Below are positions 5,833-63,525 of a stretch of 64,000 nucleotides of DNA, piece after piece. Numbering within the stretch: position 1 is the stretch's first letter; each line of letters begins with the position of its first letter. The stretch spans positions 1 to 64,000 of the forward strand of contig MAAL01000168.1 of the NCBI GenBank assembly GCA_002163245.1, given 5' to 3'. The stretch is from Gammaproteobacteria bacterium 42_54_T18 (lineage in GTDB: Bacteria; Pseudomonadota; Gammaproteobacteria; Pseudomonadales; Ketobacteraceae). The position numbers and the translations under genes were made by a program. The notes under the pieces were generated by a model. It ran no database searches and was not told the DNA's origin. It saw nothing but the letters and a program-made list of their open reading frames with translations.

Positions 5833-5900
5833 AAAAAGGCAGTACCACTTATATTCAGAGCGGTGATGAGGAGGTGTGAACTAAAAAAGGGTCTAGAACT

Positions 5901-20706: not shown

Positions 20707-20760
20707 ATAGGCGCTATTCATTGGTAACAGAGATCCTTGTTAACGATGAATAGCGCCTAT
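20707..20760. terminator. Long perfect palindrome between the dac gene and ybeD
   Basis: ATAGGCGCTATTCAT and its exact complement (15 bp) enclose a 24-base loop with a second inner stem TAACA/TGTTA. Probably a transcript-end or RNA-stability hairpin; there is no U-run. Confidence 0.5.
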
Positions 20761-55294: not shown

Positions 55295-55465
55295 GACTGG
55301 TTGGTCGAGGTCATTTGTTAAGCCGTCGTTTACAAAAGTACATAAATCTCCAATTTATCCCGCCCGATATTGTGTTATAAAAATGGAAACCGAATAATTC
55401 TCTGTATGAAGTCTATACTTCGAGAGATGGATCTCCAGAAAGAGTGCTTGTTGTTAGGGGGTGTA

Positions 55466-57142: not shown

Positions 57143-58405
57143 ATGAATGAAGAACTACAAAGCTTTTACTTTTTGGGTGTAGCTCTGGCTATCGGTCTGT
57201 TGATCGGTGTTGAGCGCGGCTGGAAAGAGCGTGAGGCAAAAGATGGTGAGCGAATTGCGGGTATTCGCACTTACGGGCTGATAGGTCTGTTGGGTGGTGG
57301 TACGGCTTTGTTGACAGAAAGTGCGGGGGGGGTGGTCATTGGCTTGGCTTACGTTGCCATTGCTGGGGCGCTAACCACTGTTTACGTGGTGAACTTGAGT
57401 CGAGGTGATGAGGACGTGGGTATTACCAGCCTGATAACAGGGCTGGTGACATTCATGTTGGGGGCGTTGGCAGGCGTTGGAGAGGTTGTTGTTGCGGCAG
57501 CCTTTGGCGTGTTGGCAACGTTATTGCTAAGCCATAAACCAACGCTACACCGCTGGGTGGGGGCGTTGAAAGGTAAAGAGCTACGGGCAGGCATTAAACT
57601 TTTGCTGATAACTGTAGCATTATTGCCTGTTCTTCCCAATAAAGGTTATGGCCCTTGGGGAGCGTTGAACCCGTATGAAATTTGGTGGATGGTTGTTTTG
57701 GTCGCAGTCATCTCTTTTGTGGGTTACATAGCGATTAAGATTGGTGGGGCGAGGCGGGGTGTTATTTTTACCGGATTGTTTGGGGGCTTGGCGTCATCCA
57801 CAGCGTTGACGTTACACTTTTCTAGAATGGGTCGTCGAGACCCCTTGTTGGCTCCCGTTTTGGCAACGGGAATTTTACTTGCTTGCGGCACCATGTTTCC
57901 TCGTGTTTTGTTTGTTGTCACTCTTGTGAACCCTGAGATGTTTAAGCCTTTGGTGGTGCCTATGTTAGTGATGGCGTTATTAACGTACTTACCAGCTATA
58001 TGGTATTGGTGTTCACCGGTTCCGCATAAAGCGAGCAAACGAACAAAGCTTAAAAATCCGGTGGAATTAAGAGCTGCGTTAGGGTTTGGGGTGTTATTGG
58101 CATTGGTGATGCTGTTAAGTGTGGCGTTGCAGGATTGGTTTGGTGATGTCGCGGTTTTGGTTTTGGCTGCTGCATCGGGTATTGCTGATGTTGATCCCAT
58201 TAACTTGTCATTGGCACGAATGAGTTTAGATGATTTGGCATTACATATTGCGGCAACAGGGGGCTTGATTGCAGCAGGTGTGAATAGTTTAGCAAAAGCC
58301 GTGATGGCGACCGCCGTTGGCGGTCGCGAGATAGGGTTTCGAGTGGGCTTGCCCTTAATTGTGAGTGCGGGTGGAGGTTTAGCTGCCGCTTGGTTCTGGG
58401 TGTAG
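57143..58405 (+). CDS. MgtC/SapB-DUF4010 family membrane protein
   Basis: A 420-residue protein with about a dozen hydrophobic segments. The N terminus carries the MgtC/SapB-like block ALAIGLLIGVERGWKEREAKDGERIAGIRTYGLIGLLGG. The rest is the DUF4010-type repeat (LFGGLASSTALTLHFSRMGRRDP; AASGIADVDPINLSLARMSLDDLALHIAATGGLIAAGVNSLAKA), including DVDP, which may line a metal or anion path. The substrate is unproven. Its 3' end overlaps the opposing RND gene by 27 bases. Confidence 0.88.
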   Translation: MNEELQSFYFLGVALAIGLLIGVERGWKEREAKDGERIAGIRTYGLIGLLGGGTALLTESAGGVVIGLAYVAIAGALTTVYVVNLSRGDEDVGITSLITGLVTFMLGALAGVGEVVVAAAFGVLATLLLSHKPTLHRWVGALKGKELRAGIKLLLITVALLPVLPNKGYGPWGALNPYEIWWMVVLVAVISFVGYIAIKIGGARRGVIFTGLFGGLASSTALTLHFSRMGRRDPLLAPVLATGILLACGTMFPRVLFVVTLVNPEMFKPLVVPMLVMALLTYLPAIWYWCSPVPHKASKRTKLKNPVELRAALGFGVLLALVMLLSVALQDWFGDVAVLVLAAASGIADVDPINLSLARMSLDDLALHIAATGGLIAAGVNSLAKAVMATAVGGREIGFRVGLPLIVSAGGGLAAAWFWV

Positions 58406-60916
58406 TGGGTTCAGCGGTTTTATGCTGGCAATGAGTAGAGGCAGTAATGTTAGGTTTGCAAATAGCGCCGCCATCATAGCTACTCCTGTTAATAAACCGA
58501 AATACATAGTGGGAACAAAATTTGACATTGCCAATATGGAAAAACCTAAGGTAATGGTGACTGTGGTGTAATACATAGCGCGGCCAATGGATGCATGGCT
58601 TCGATTTATTGCTCCCCAGTAGTCAAGGTCTTTATAAAACTCATCGGTGACGCGGTGAACGTAATGGATTGAGTTATCAACACCAATACCAATGCTAATG
58701 GCTGCAATAGTAATTGTCATCATATCTAAGGGGATTCCCGACCACCCCATCAGTCCCAATATTAATGCGGCTGCAATAAGGTTGGGTATGATGGTAATTA
58801 ACGCCATTTTGATATTTCGAAATAACATTACAAACATAATCAAAATGGCAAAGAATACCACTCCAAGAGTGAGTATTTGTGAGTGGAAAAGGCTTTGTAG
58901 CATGTTGTTATATAACACTAACATGCCGGTTAAATGCACTTGATCTTCTTCAAGTTGCATTTTTTGAGTTAGCTCACGTTGGATTTTTTCTAACAGAACC
59001 TTGCGTTGTAATGATGGGTCTGATTCAAATACACGAATAGAAAAGCGTAGTTGGTTACCGTCTTCAGACATATATGGTTCGATTAGTGATTGTTTGATTT
59101 CTTGTGGTAATTTTTTATAAAGAATTGCCAAAGTGAAGTCATCTGAGACAACGTCTTCATCAATTTGTCGCAAAGTTTCTAGTGCTGTGGCGATAGAAAG
59201 TACTTTTCCGGTCTCTGGTAGTTCGTCTAAATACTTGTGTATGGCAAAAATTTGGTCGAAACGACGTGTGTTAAACCAATAACTTGTGCCTGTGATACCT
59301 GCACCCGCTTCGGTGCCGAAGTCATCGTCAAAATCTTCTTCCCAATCTTCATCGTCTTCCAATGAATCCAGGTCTTCGTTTTCATCAACTTCAAAAAACA
59401 CACTGGGAGCATCAATAATAACATCTAGTGGAGTGGTGCCACCCAGTTTACGATCGATAAGTGCCATACCTTGGTAGATTTCAGTATTCTTTTTAAAGTA
59501 ATCAATAAATCGGTTTTCTACCGTAAGGTTATTGATACCGATGGCGCTAAATATTGCCAGAAATATAAATAGAGAAAATGTTAGCGATGAATGATCTTTG
59601 ATGTAGCCTGCAAGGCGGAGGGTTATTTTATCTGTTATTGCATTTTTGTTGTTTGACTCACCGGGCTTTAAAAATAATAAGGTGGCGGGGAATAGCGTGA
59701 AGACCAATATGAAAGCAACAGATATGCCAATGGTCATCATCCAACCAAAATCGATGATAGGTCGAATGCCACTAAATAACAGTGACCCAAATGCAACAAT
59801 CGTGGTGATTGCCGTATAAAAACATGGAGCGGCTTTTGAGCGAATGGTGTCTTTGATTAGGGTATGTTGTGTTGCATTAGGGGATTGCTCTTGAAGCTCT
59901 CTATAACGAACAATTAAGTGTATTGATAGCGATAGGGTGATGATAAGAAGTAGTGAAATGAAATTTGAAGAAACAACGGTGACGGGCCAGTTAACAAAAG
60001 CCAGAAAACCTATCATAATAATTCCAGCGGCAAGACAGGTGAACATGGGTAAGCTAACCCAACGGAGTTTACGAAAGGTGACGGTTAAAATTGCAATCAT
60101 AAAACAGATAACACCCACACCAAAGGTCATCAGGTCATGTTGGATAAAGTCCGTTGAATCTGATGCAATCATCGGTACACCGCCAAGATGGATGTTGGCT
60201 TTCTGTTGGTAGGTTTTTATGATGCTGCGAATAGTGGCAATATCGTTTTTCTGATTCTGTTGATAGGTGCTGTTATGGGCGTCGAATTGTTGTGATATGC
60301 GATCTAGCGTTTGCTGTTCGTTGGGTAAAAGAGTGTTGTTAAGTTTCTTCTCTCGTAACGCGTCACGTTGATCTAATAGGCGGTGCCAGGTCTCATCTCT
60401 GCGGAATTGAATTTGTAACGCCGTTGTTTTACCGTCAGGGCTTATAATAAGGTTGCGGTATAGCGCGCTGGTGACAAATTCTTTCTTGGCCAATGCAATA
60501 TCTACTTGCGGGCTTTCCAGGGTTATAATGCCTTTTTGTAGCTCGTTTAAGGTTACCGGGGGGCTTTGTATCAGAGGAACATCAAGTAAGCTTGTAATAG
60601 ATTTTACACGAGATAGCGTAGAGAGATCATTTTTGAAAGATCGCAAATGGCTAAGCGCCGCTGTGCCGAAAAGTCCCTCTTTAAAGGCATTGTCAGATGG
60701 GGTATAGGTGAGGATGAGGCTGTCGTCAGAGCCGTAGCGAGCTCGAATAGCCCGGTAGTACTCTAAGGCCGAGTCGTTTTCTAACACCAGTGAGTCGGCA
60801 GAAGCATCTAGTTTGAAGTTTGGGCTTTGGTATGCAAAGAATGCAATGACCAAGGATACAAGCAGCAGGGTGATTTTAGGCTGGCTGAGAACGAATCGGT
60901 TGTAAATGTTGAGCAT
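58379..60916 (-). CDS. RND/MMPL-family transporter
   Basis: An 845-residue protein with two sets of six helices after N-terminal helices, and two periplasmic loops, in the MMPL/HpnN-like style (YYRAIRARYGSDDSLILTYTP; MMTITIAAISIGIGVDNSIHYVHR). The second loop holds an unusual acidic run at about residues 505-540 (DLDSLEDDEDWEEDFDDDFG). These proteins export lipids or hydrophobic compounds by proton motive force. The second, related gene follows on the same strand. Confidence 0.9.
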   Translation of the reverse strand: MLNIYNRFVLSQPKITLLLVSLVIAFFAYQSPNFKLDASADSLVLENDSALEYYRAIRARYGSDDSLILTYTPSDNAFKEGLFGTAALSHLRSFKNDLSTLSRVKSITSLLDVPLIQSPPVTLNELQKGIITLESPQVDIALAKKEFVTSALYRNLIISPDGKTTALQIQFRRDETWHRLLDQRDALREKKLNNTLLPNEQQTLDRISQQFDAHNSTYQQNQKNDIATIRSIIKTYQQKANIHLGGVPMIASDSTDFIQHDLMTFGVGVICFMIAILTVTFRKLRWVSLPMFTCLAAGIIMIGFLAFVNWPVTVVSSNFISLLLIITLSLSIHLIVRYRELQEQSPNATQHTLIKDTIRSKAAPCFYTAITTIVAFGSLLFSGIRPIIDFGWMMTIGISVAFILVFTLFPATLLFLKPGESNNKNAITDKITLRLAGYIKDHSSLTFSLFIFLAIFSAIGINNLTVENRFIDYFKKNTEIYQGMALIDRKLGGTTPLDVIIDAPSVFFEVDENEDLDSLEDDEDWEEDFDDDFGTEAGAGITGTSYWFNTRRFDQIFAIHKYLDELPETGKVLSIATALETLRQIDEDVVSDDFTLAILYKKLPQEIKQSLIEPYMSEDGNQLRFSIRVFESDPSLQRKVLLEKIQRELTQKMQLEEDQVHLTGMLVLYNNMLQSLFHSQILTLGVVFFAILIMFVMLFRNIKMALITIIPNLIAAALILGLMGWSGIPLDMMTITIAAISIGIGVDNSIHYVHRVTDEFYKDLDYWGAINRSHASIGRAMYYTTVTITLGFSILAMSNFVPTMYFGLLTGVAMMAALFANLTLLPLLIASIKPLNPLHPEPSGS

Positions 60917-60958
60917 TGTGTATTAAGCCGTAGTTTAGGTGTTGGTGGTATACATCAT

Positions 60959-61010
60959 AATATTGGATATCAAATCCCGTCAATGCATACAGGCTTTGAT
61001 ATCCAATATT
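60959..61010. repeat. Perfect 16-bp palindrome between the two RND genes
   Basis: AATATTGGATATCAAA is exactly complementary to TTTGATATCCAATATT; the loop is 20 bases. It lies 11 bases after the end of the frameshifted RND gene on the minus strand. Probably a terminator or stabilising hairpin without a U-run. Confidence 0.55.
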
Positions 61011-61021
61011 ACTGCGTTGTT

Positions 61022-63525
61022 TTACTCGCTAGCAGCGCAAGGTTGAGAGCTGTTTGTATCGTTGTCTGGTTTGTTGGCTTTTTCGTTGATGTTTACGCTA
61101 GCGTTGGGGGCATCAATAGGCTTATTGAGAAGTACCATAAATGCCGGTGCGAATAAGAAGGAGGAGACTAGCGCAAGGGCAATACACAGTGCGGTTAATA
61201 CACCAAATCCAACCATGTTGTTTAATGTTGATTGGGTATAAATCAAAAAGCCAAAAGACAATACAATTGACGTTATAAACATTGCGCGCCCAGAAGATAG
61301 CAATGTGCTTTCGATTGCCAGTTTTGCATTCCCCGTTATTGCCAGGTTCCGCCTGAAACCATGGATAAAGTGTACGTTATCATCCACCGTCAATCCGATA
61401 GCGATAGAGCCTATTAGCATGGTGAACATATCGAGCGGATATCCTAGGAGACACAGTATAGAAACCACGATAGTGATTGGCATTAAAGAAGGAATCATCG
61501 TGACAAGTCCTAGCTTTACGTTACCCACTAATAGAATCATCATTAGAGTGATGACAATACCGGCGAGAATATAACTTTCTGCTGTTGAATAAAGCATTTC
61601 TGCAAAGGTTGTTCCCAGAACGGCGGCAACACCGGTAACAACAATTTTCTGAGCGTATTGTTGTAGATCTTGATCGAGCTTACTCTCTAGTCGTGTTAAT
61701 AGATCTTGGTAGTGAAGCGCGTCAACCCAAGGGATCATGACGGTGATTCGCATGGTTTGGTATTTACGATCGATCAATTTAAACAGGTTGTCGGGATTAT
61801 CTAATTCGACTAAAAACAACTCTTGGCTGATTAGCTTGTTATCCTCAGGAATGGAGTAATAGGCTTGATCATTGTCGTGCAATCCCCGATTGCTTTCCTT
61901 TATTACATCTACAACACTGATGATTTTGGCAATAGAGTAATGCTCCGTTTCCCAGGCCAAAATATCTTCAATGGTTTTTTCGGCTTGTTGTAGAAGGCCT
62001 GAATTGTTAACACCACGATCTTTACCTGTATCGATGGATATTTCGATTGTCATGGTGCCGCCCATACGTTCTTGGGTTTTTTCAATGGCTAATATAGCAG
62101 GGTGATCTTCTGGGAACCAAGATAAAGGGTCGTGTCCAAATTGAATTTGGGTTGCGATAGCAGTAGAGCTGATAAAAAGGATAATACCCGAAGTCACGAT
62201 GATTTTGGGGTAACGTGTAGAGACGTGAATGCAGGTATAAAGTATTTTATTTATTACTGTTTTTTGTCGGTTAAGATTTACCACAGGGCGACGTTTTATC
62301 GGTAATAGGGTAATTAGGCAGGGTAAAATAAATATCGTTAACATAAAGGCTAGTAGGGACCCGATAGCTCCAAATATACCCAAGCTAGCAATAGGAGATA
62401 ACTCTGATGTGCCAAAGGAGGCAAGCCCAGCAGCGGTGGTGACGCTGGTAAAAAACATCGCTAAACCTGTGTGTTCTAAGGATTGGCGCAACGCTTCGTT
62501 CTTTGTCGCCCCTTCGTCATAACGTTGGAAAAAAATGGTCAGTAAATGGATGCTGTCTCCAACACAAACACCAATGCAAATGACGGTAAAATGGACGTCG
62601 TCATTTGCATTGGTGTATCAAGAATCGCCATGAAACTGATGGTTGCGGTTACTCCCAAAATCATCACCACCAAGGGCATAAATACCGCTGATCCACGCCT
62701 GAATACAATTCCCAATACAATGCCAACCAATAATATGCCTAACACACTGAAAACGGTAAAGTCCCGTTCTATTGCTTCCCCCAAGATGATTGCAATAGGC
62801 TGTGACCCGGCGATGCGTATGTCATTTGATAGTTTGCCCGTGAAGTTGTCAACGATACTGCCGATGGCAGCATAGGCTTCACGCATTTCTTTGTCTTCCA
62901 TGTACTTGGTAGTGACATTTCCTTCGGCATCTTTCCCGTAAATATAGGGCTCAAGGCGTAACATGACGCTGGTGAGGTGGCGGTCTTTTGAGATAAGGTA
63001 ACTCTGATACGTAGGGCTGTCGTAGGTGTAGCTTTGTAACTTTTTAAGTTCCTGTGGGTCTTTGGGAAGCTCAATGGGTAATAAGTCTTCTATGATTAAC
63101 GTGTCATTTTCACCGTAAATATGGGATGCGTTAATTAGCGAATCTACTGATTGTAGATAAGGGACTTCATCTTCTAGTGCCTGATGAAACGCTCGTAAGT
63201 TATCAACGAACGTTTGATTGAAGAGATCTTCAACTTCTACCGTTATAATAAAAACTTCATCTCGACCAAAGGTATCTTTGAATTCGTTGTAATCAATGAT
63301 GGATTGTTCTTCTTGGTCGAGAAAGCTTTCTATGGCAGTGTCAGTACGTAGGTGTACTAACTGTGAGGCGATGGAGCCAATAATCAATAAACACATTGTG
63401 AACCACAGAACTGGATGATGGCTGATACTGACACCAAGTCGGCCAAAGCTTTTCTCTGCTGTTGATTTCCAGTTGGATTGGTTACTTTTACTGAACATCT
63501 GGTTCTTCCTCTCGTAAGAAGACAA
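61022..63525 (-). pseudogene. Second RND/MMPL-family transporter, broken by a frameshift
   Basis: Two overlapping parts of one gene: 63525-62539 (328 residues, ending FVLETASIY-stop) and 62491-61022 (489 residues from an internal Met). Together they give an RND protein of about 834 residues, like the neighbour. Between PSF (just upstream) and GDSIHLL (continuing in the other frame) there are 17 bases where 18 would keep frame, consistent with a one-base deletion near 62561-62577. The C-terminal part retains SIAIGLTVDDNVHFIHGF. It could be an assembly error, but no homopolymer is present. The break lies inside an 18-bp inverted repeat. Confidence 0.85.
62568..62616. repeat. Perfect 18-bp inverted repeat at the frameshift
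   Basis: ACACCAATGCAAATGACG (62568-62585) is exactly complementary to 62599-62616, with a 13-base spacer. It is within coding sequence and covers the place where the reading frame is lost. Confidence 0.95.

Follow-up and report, generated by a model that had tools for sequence, protein, structure and literature searches.

A single MMPL/RND transporter gene, divided between two reading frames, was found at positions 61022-63525 on the minus strand of the window (the whole 64-kb stretch of DNA analysed here), as indicated by the list of open reading frames (ORFs) and by profile search. Both halves scored above the curated cut-off of the MMPL profile (PF03176; Table 1), which places the gene in the MMPL domain family; with the HAE3 transporter profile (TIGR00921) the intact orthologue described below reached 193.4 bits, under the cut-off of 351.9 for that subfamily. 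The upstream frame ends at 62539 and the downstream frame is open from 62617, the ORF listed for the latter (61022-62491) beginning at a TTG at 62491. For the upstream ORF, an ATG at 63498 appears to be a likelier start than the listed TTG, and the predicted protein shared 86% identity with the orthologue of the nearest genome across query residues 7-302. Alignment with that orthologue revealed one base fewer at the join of the two halves, as the earlier note had proposed; the alignment gap falls near 62571, within the downstream arm of an inverted repeat. Again as proposed, there is no homopolymer at the shift: no run longer than three bases occurred there, and a seven-T run sits past the stop of the upstream frame. 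Directly downstream, in the same orientation, another MMPL/RND gene (58379-60916) has an open frame.

Table 1. Features of the divided MMPL/RND gene and of the inverted repeat at its junction (window coordinates)
Feature	Position	Strand	Remarks
Upstream ORF of the broken MMPL/RND gene	62539..63525	-	From ORF list; MMPL PF03176 31.7 bits (cut-off 20.5)
Downstream part of the same gene, other frame	61022..62617	-	From ORF list; MMPL PF03176 35.3 bits (cut-off 20.5)
Overlap of the two frames	62539..62617	-	Holds the inverted repeat; without an XXXYYYZ slippery heptamer
Upstream arm (gene orientation), inferred template	62599..62616	-	Encodes Thr-Pro-Met-Gln-Met-Thr; same residues in orthologue and outgroup L041
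Spacer, 13 nt	62586..62598	-	Orientation as in orthologue (alignment)
Downstream arm, inferred rewritten	62568..62585	-	Lacks one base and has two neighbouring bases shared with no homologue seen; every change brings it closer to the complement of the upstream arm

The arms of the repeat are complementary at 18/18 positions, which confirms the exact 18-bp inverted repeat that had been noticed, and its improbability by chance was also borne out: only 3.8e-5 arms of at least 18 bp (spacer 3-40) are expected per 64 kb, and the longest arms in 60 Markov-simulated 64-kb sequences were 9 to 13 bp. Among perfect inverted repeats within ORFs it was the longest in 524 kb of sampled genome sequence (window included), and among inverted repeats with differences in their arms it was the longest in 19,867 aligned columns. 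Folded as single-stranded DNA, the repeat had an energy of -20.3 kcal/mol (z -8.1) in the window and of -4.4 (z -1.1) in the orthologue. The window contains four more perfect repeats whose arms are at least 14 bp long, at 5900, 20707, 32584 and 60958; two of these, at 20707 and 60958, are intergenic, and those at 5900 and 32584, which were absent from the list of in-ORF repeats, look like terminators. The repeat at 60958-61011, situated between the two RND genes, has perfect 17-bp arms and a 20-nt spacer; since its counterpart in the nearest genome is 13 bp long with paired changes in both arms, it is probably a conserved hairpin.

The nearest genome (G001, same genus) carries an intact orthologue on its contig C19, with 84% DNA identity over 2408 aligned columns and a protein identical to that of record CAJXXT010000019.1. 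The window gene, entered as its two halves with the junction masked, paired with this orthologue at 100/100 in a 20-protein tree; the other same-genus copies (L035, L036 and L042) clustered with the C30 paralogue of the window's own genome. Among 57 genomes and 14 loci examined, this was the one close orthologue, the outgroups being more distant, and the ancestral wobble bases are uncertain as a consequence. For comparison of the repeat, 19 rows representing 18 distinct genes (rows L005 and L034 are both the G001 orthologue) were used, the site being located by the pattern Phe-(Leu/Ile)-Leu-Ala-Val. Because this pattern itself requires the motif, conservation was taken instead from an 11-sequence alignment of close homologues and from the 18 codon rows. 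Sequences L017-L033 were excluded from the close homologues, being either remote RND proteins whose motifs differ or sequences that failed to align.

None of the 19 rows contained the perfect repeat, the longest continuous pairing being 7 (orthologue row L034). Two relatives carry the imperfect inverted repeat from which a quasipalindrome mutation starts, with 11/18 positions pairing ungapped and a run of 7 bp in the orthologue, and 10/18 and a run of 5 bp in the outgroup L041; from these we infer the state of the ancestor. The repeat has become perfect in the window, and the changes are clustered in one arm, as predicted by the other arm, apart from one template base found in neither relative. 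The upstream arm resembles the ancestral state, 17 of its 18 bases being common with L041 and 16 with the orthologue; the base adjoining the spacer is present in neither, so that a separate change is needed for that pair.

The arm that departs from the intact homologues is the downstream one, as had been suggested, and each difference inside it goes towards the complement of the other arm. In the relatives it overlies Pro-Ser-Phe-Leu-Leu-Ala-Val, and Phe-Leu-Leu-Ala-Val-Cys-Val-Gly forms invariant columns in the 11-sequence alignment. The codon rows, two of which are one gene, encode Phe-Leu-Leu-Ala in 17/18 cases and Phe-Ile-Leu-Ala in L016, and none of the 18 has a G at the first or a C at the middle position of the first Leu/Ile codon; both occur in the window, where the Ala codon two codons further on is also one base short. 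Relative to G001, a span of 8 nt contains one deletion and three substitutions, the third substitution being a synonymous CTG/TTG Leu difference that may be older, since TTG is present in 6/18 rows. From Phe to Val, the corresponding arm of L041 matches the window except at the first two bases of that Leu codon and at the lost base, and there are two more differences nearer the spacer. One further difference lies immediately beside the rewritten arm, and the template gives no account of it.

These results support quasi-palindrome template switching, the cause put forward in the earlier note, in that the changed arm has been identified and all its differences match one template. We consider it probable (about 0.83) that a single short template switch within an imperfect repeat accounts for both the substitutions and the deletion, i.e. 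that this is a quasipalindrome mutation in a gene that was intact in the ancestor. The ancestral gene would have borne the imperfect inverted repeat; the growing strand would have halted in the second arm during DNA synthesis and paired with the first arm, approximately 7 nt of which would have been copied instead of approximately 8 nt of the proper template before the strand returned. The first two bases of the invariant Leu codon would thereby be altered and one base lost two codons on, so that the same event, presumably a single one occurring in replication, would have perfected the hairpin and shifted the frame. As the spacer has kept its orientation, the arms would have been homogenised with no inversion of the spacer.

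The strand made in the direction of the gene produces the template arm first, so that fold-back of this strand on itself suffices and is the simplest route, whereas synthesis of the opposite strand would require a switch to another molecule. The plus-strand GC skew was positive in 8/8 bins, a weak hint that the gene-direction strand is the lagging strand, and we draw no conclusion on the strand from it. Template switching is described as more frequent on the leading strand in E. coli (PMC6357072), and according to a review, hairpin mutations may arise more readily on the lagging strand (PMC10710837). Mirror repeats were counted in the same alignment as a control and yielded one case of 15 bp, rich in differences and located in low-complexity A-rich sequence, and another of 12 bp, one arm of which had three differences. 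Mirror repeats have no templating meaning. Among true inverted repeats with differences in the alignment, the longest measured 18 bp (the repeat at the frameshift) and 17 bp (the intergenic hairpin).

How recent and how real the break is can be judged from the rest of the gene. Pairwise dN/dS relative to the orthologue was 0.072 for the upstream half and 0.047 for the downstream half, figures that are rough because dS is near 1, and these values show both halves to have been under apparently strong purifying selection. The lack of any sign of decay suggests that the break is very recent, polymorphic or, less likely, an artefact. In an artefact, fold-back copying during library amplification or a wrong assembler path at the hairpin would have generated the sequence, the gene in the cell being intact. 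Such an origin is unlikely, although it would agree with the strong constraint on both halves, with the lack of any other break seen in the gene, and with the state of the assembly (199 contigs, 3.93% contamination). The consensus would have to be dominated by faulty sequence, and apart from the C30 paralogue a DNA search of the assembly turned up no other copy that might be intact. Nor does the assembly look indel-prone: 61 indels were present in the 19,867 aligned columns, 41 of them not multiples of three, and by reading of the list the remaining in-ORF indels appear to add up, in pairs or groups, to multiples of three or to sit at gene edges, with the single indels at 55456 and 63511 taken to precede the true starts. 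The indel at the repeat thus seems to be the sole clear disruption of a coding body in the 19.9 kb.

Considerably less probable is the completion of the repeat by chance through separate ordinary mutations after the gene had died. Fewer changes would be needed given the imperfect repeat beforehand, with its 7-bp run in the orthologue, and a base of the template arm likewise seems to have mutated separately; against this, the gene exhibits no further decay, two adjacent changes at sites conserved in 18/18 rows and a deletion all fall within 8 nt, and each change lengthens the pairing towards an arm length expected by chance at only 3.8e-5 per 64 kb. Gene conversion, by which a tract was written in from a paralogue or another locus, is hardly credible: the own-genome paralogue at C30 (69% DNA identity over 312 query bases) could have been a donor, but it carries Phe-Leu-Leu-Ala with ordinary codons (row L002), and in an exact-match search of the genome the only occurrence of the rewritten arm's 13-mer outside the two arms was a single one on contig C144, where the flanks are unlike. 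Equally hard to sustain is a functional hairpin, e.g. a programmed frameshift signal allowing the full-length protein still to be produced, for which the conservation of both halves and the strength of the hairpin might speak, as the perfect form is missing from 19/19 homologue rows, the shift lies inside the stem instead of upstream, and for a -1 frameshift the overlap offers no slippery heptamer, T-run heptamers occurring only past the stop of the upstream frame.

Quasipalindrome template switching is an established mechanism, known from Ripley's 1982 model, phage T4 rIIB, yeast CYC1, the E. coli thyA hotspot and lacZ reporters, as described in PMC7202029 and PMC6357072. The present locus resembles the E. 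coli quasipalindromes (lacZ QP5/QP6 and thyA) in that, as they are presented in these sources, an imperfect repeat becomes perfect or more perfect and bases are lost by templating, and a lacZ reporter quasipalindrome likewise measures 18 bp (PMC7202029, PMC6357072). Those systems are engineered reporters or a laboratory hotspot, and the reporters are described as losing 4 bp and regaining function, whereas here, in a natural genome, two or three substitutions accompany the loss of 1 nt and the gene is broken. Homogenisation of arms in coding genes of Saccharomyces cerevisiae, as reported in PMC8604942, is similar in that multi-nucleotide changes bring one arm into agreement with its partner and are polarised with relatives; that study differs in its arms of 7-16 bp (its Table 1), its simulation test over many genes and its events, which are described as substitutions. 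Short-range template switching in great apes, in which clustered changes are explained by a local template switch, is also comparable, although the account given there concerns primate genomes and uses a formal likelihood model based on pair hidden Markov models (PMC7954356). Our search of the open-licence literature found no paper on template switching at an inverted repeat in a bacterial pseudogene, and we claim no priority.

According to published reports, exonuclease I (ExoI) aborts template switching. Its C-terminal domain (PF08411) had no match in 15/15 genomes of the family Ketobacteraceae, including the genome studied here, three of the 15 being less than 90% complete (84, 87 and 54%), and was matched in 20/23 other genomes of the same order; xseA and sbcD are present in the genome studied here. 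Perfect in-ORF repeats with arms of at least 13 bp numbered four in 459 kb of coding sequence of this genome, one of them being the 18-bp repeat, vs 0.26 expected from base composition. The same count gave 0 in 358 kb (G007) and 0 in 36 kb (G001:C19) for relatives lacking ExoI, and 0 in 353 kb (G019), 1 in 174 kb (G017) and 0 in 181 kb (G023) for genomes bearing it, the samples being not random. As far as these sequences indicate, the repeat count does not support a family-wide effect of ExoI absence, and an excess of coding repeats in this genome alone is possible. A loss of exonuclease I in the lineage of the family, and with it a rate of quasipalindrome switching so raised that gene breakage and arm rewriting are a regular source of change, would be a bold proposal, which we regard as improbable.

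Three further in-ORF perfect repeats of 13-15 bp were noticed in this genome, namely L060 4899-4931, L062 15485-15522 and L062 7688-7728 (contig C144). In L062 7688-7728, two bases of one arm are unlike those of G001 and each favours pairing; this would be consistent with a small, unpolarised rewriting. At L060 4899-4931, two adjacent bases of one arm differ from G002; as G001 shares one of them with the genome studied here, only one change is clearly derived. The differences at L062 15485-15522 lie in both arms. A clear second template-switch event is apparent in none of the three.

The locus adds a natural case to a mechanism that is itself already known. One template switch seems to have rewritten a codon and broken a gene at the same time, in a case where the changed arm is identifiable from relatives. 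Clustered changes at the break of a pseudogene need not, therefore, be counted as separate mutations, and such breaks are recognisable from sequence with one close relative. The absence of ExoI from the genomes of the family would provide a natural setting in which any such effect is testable.
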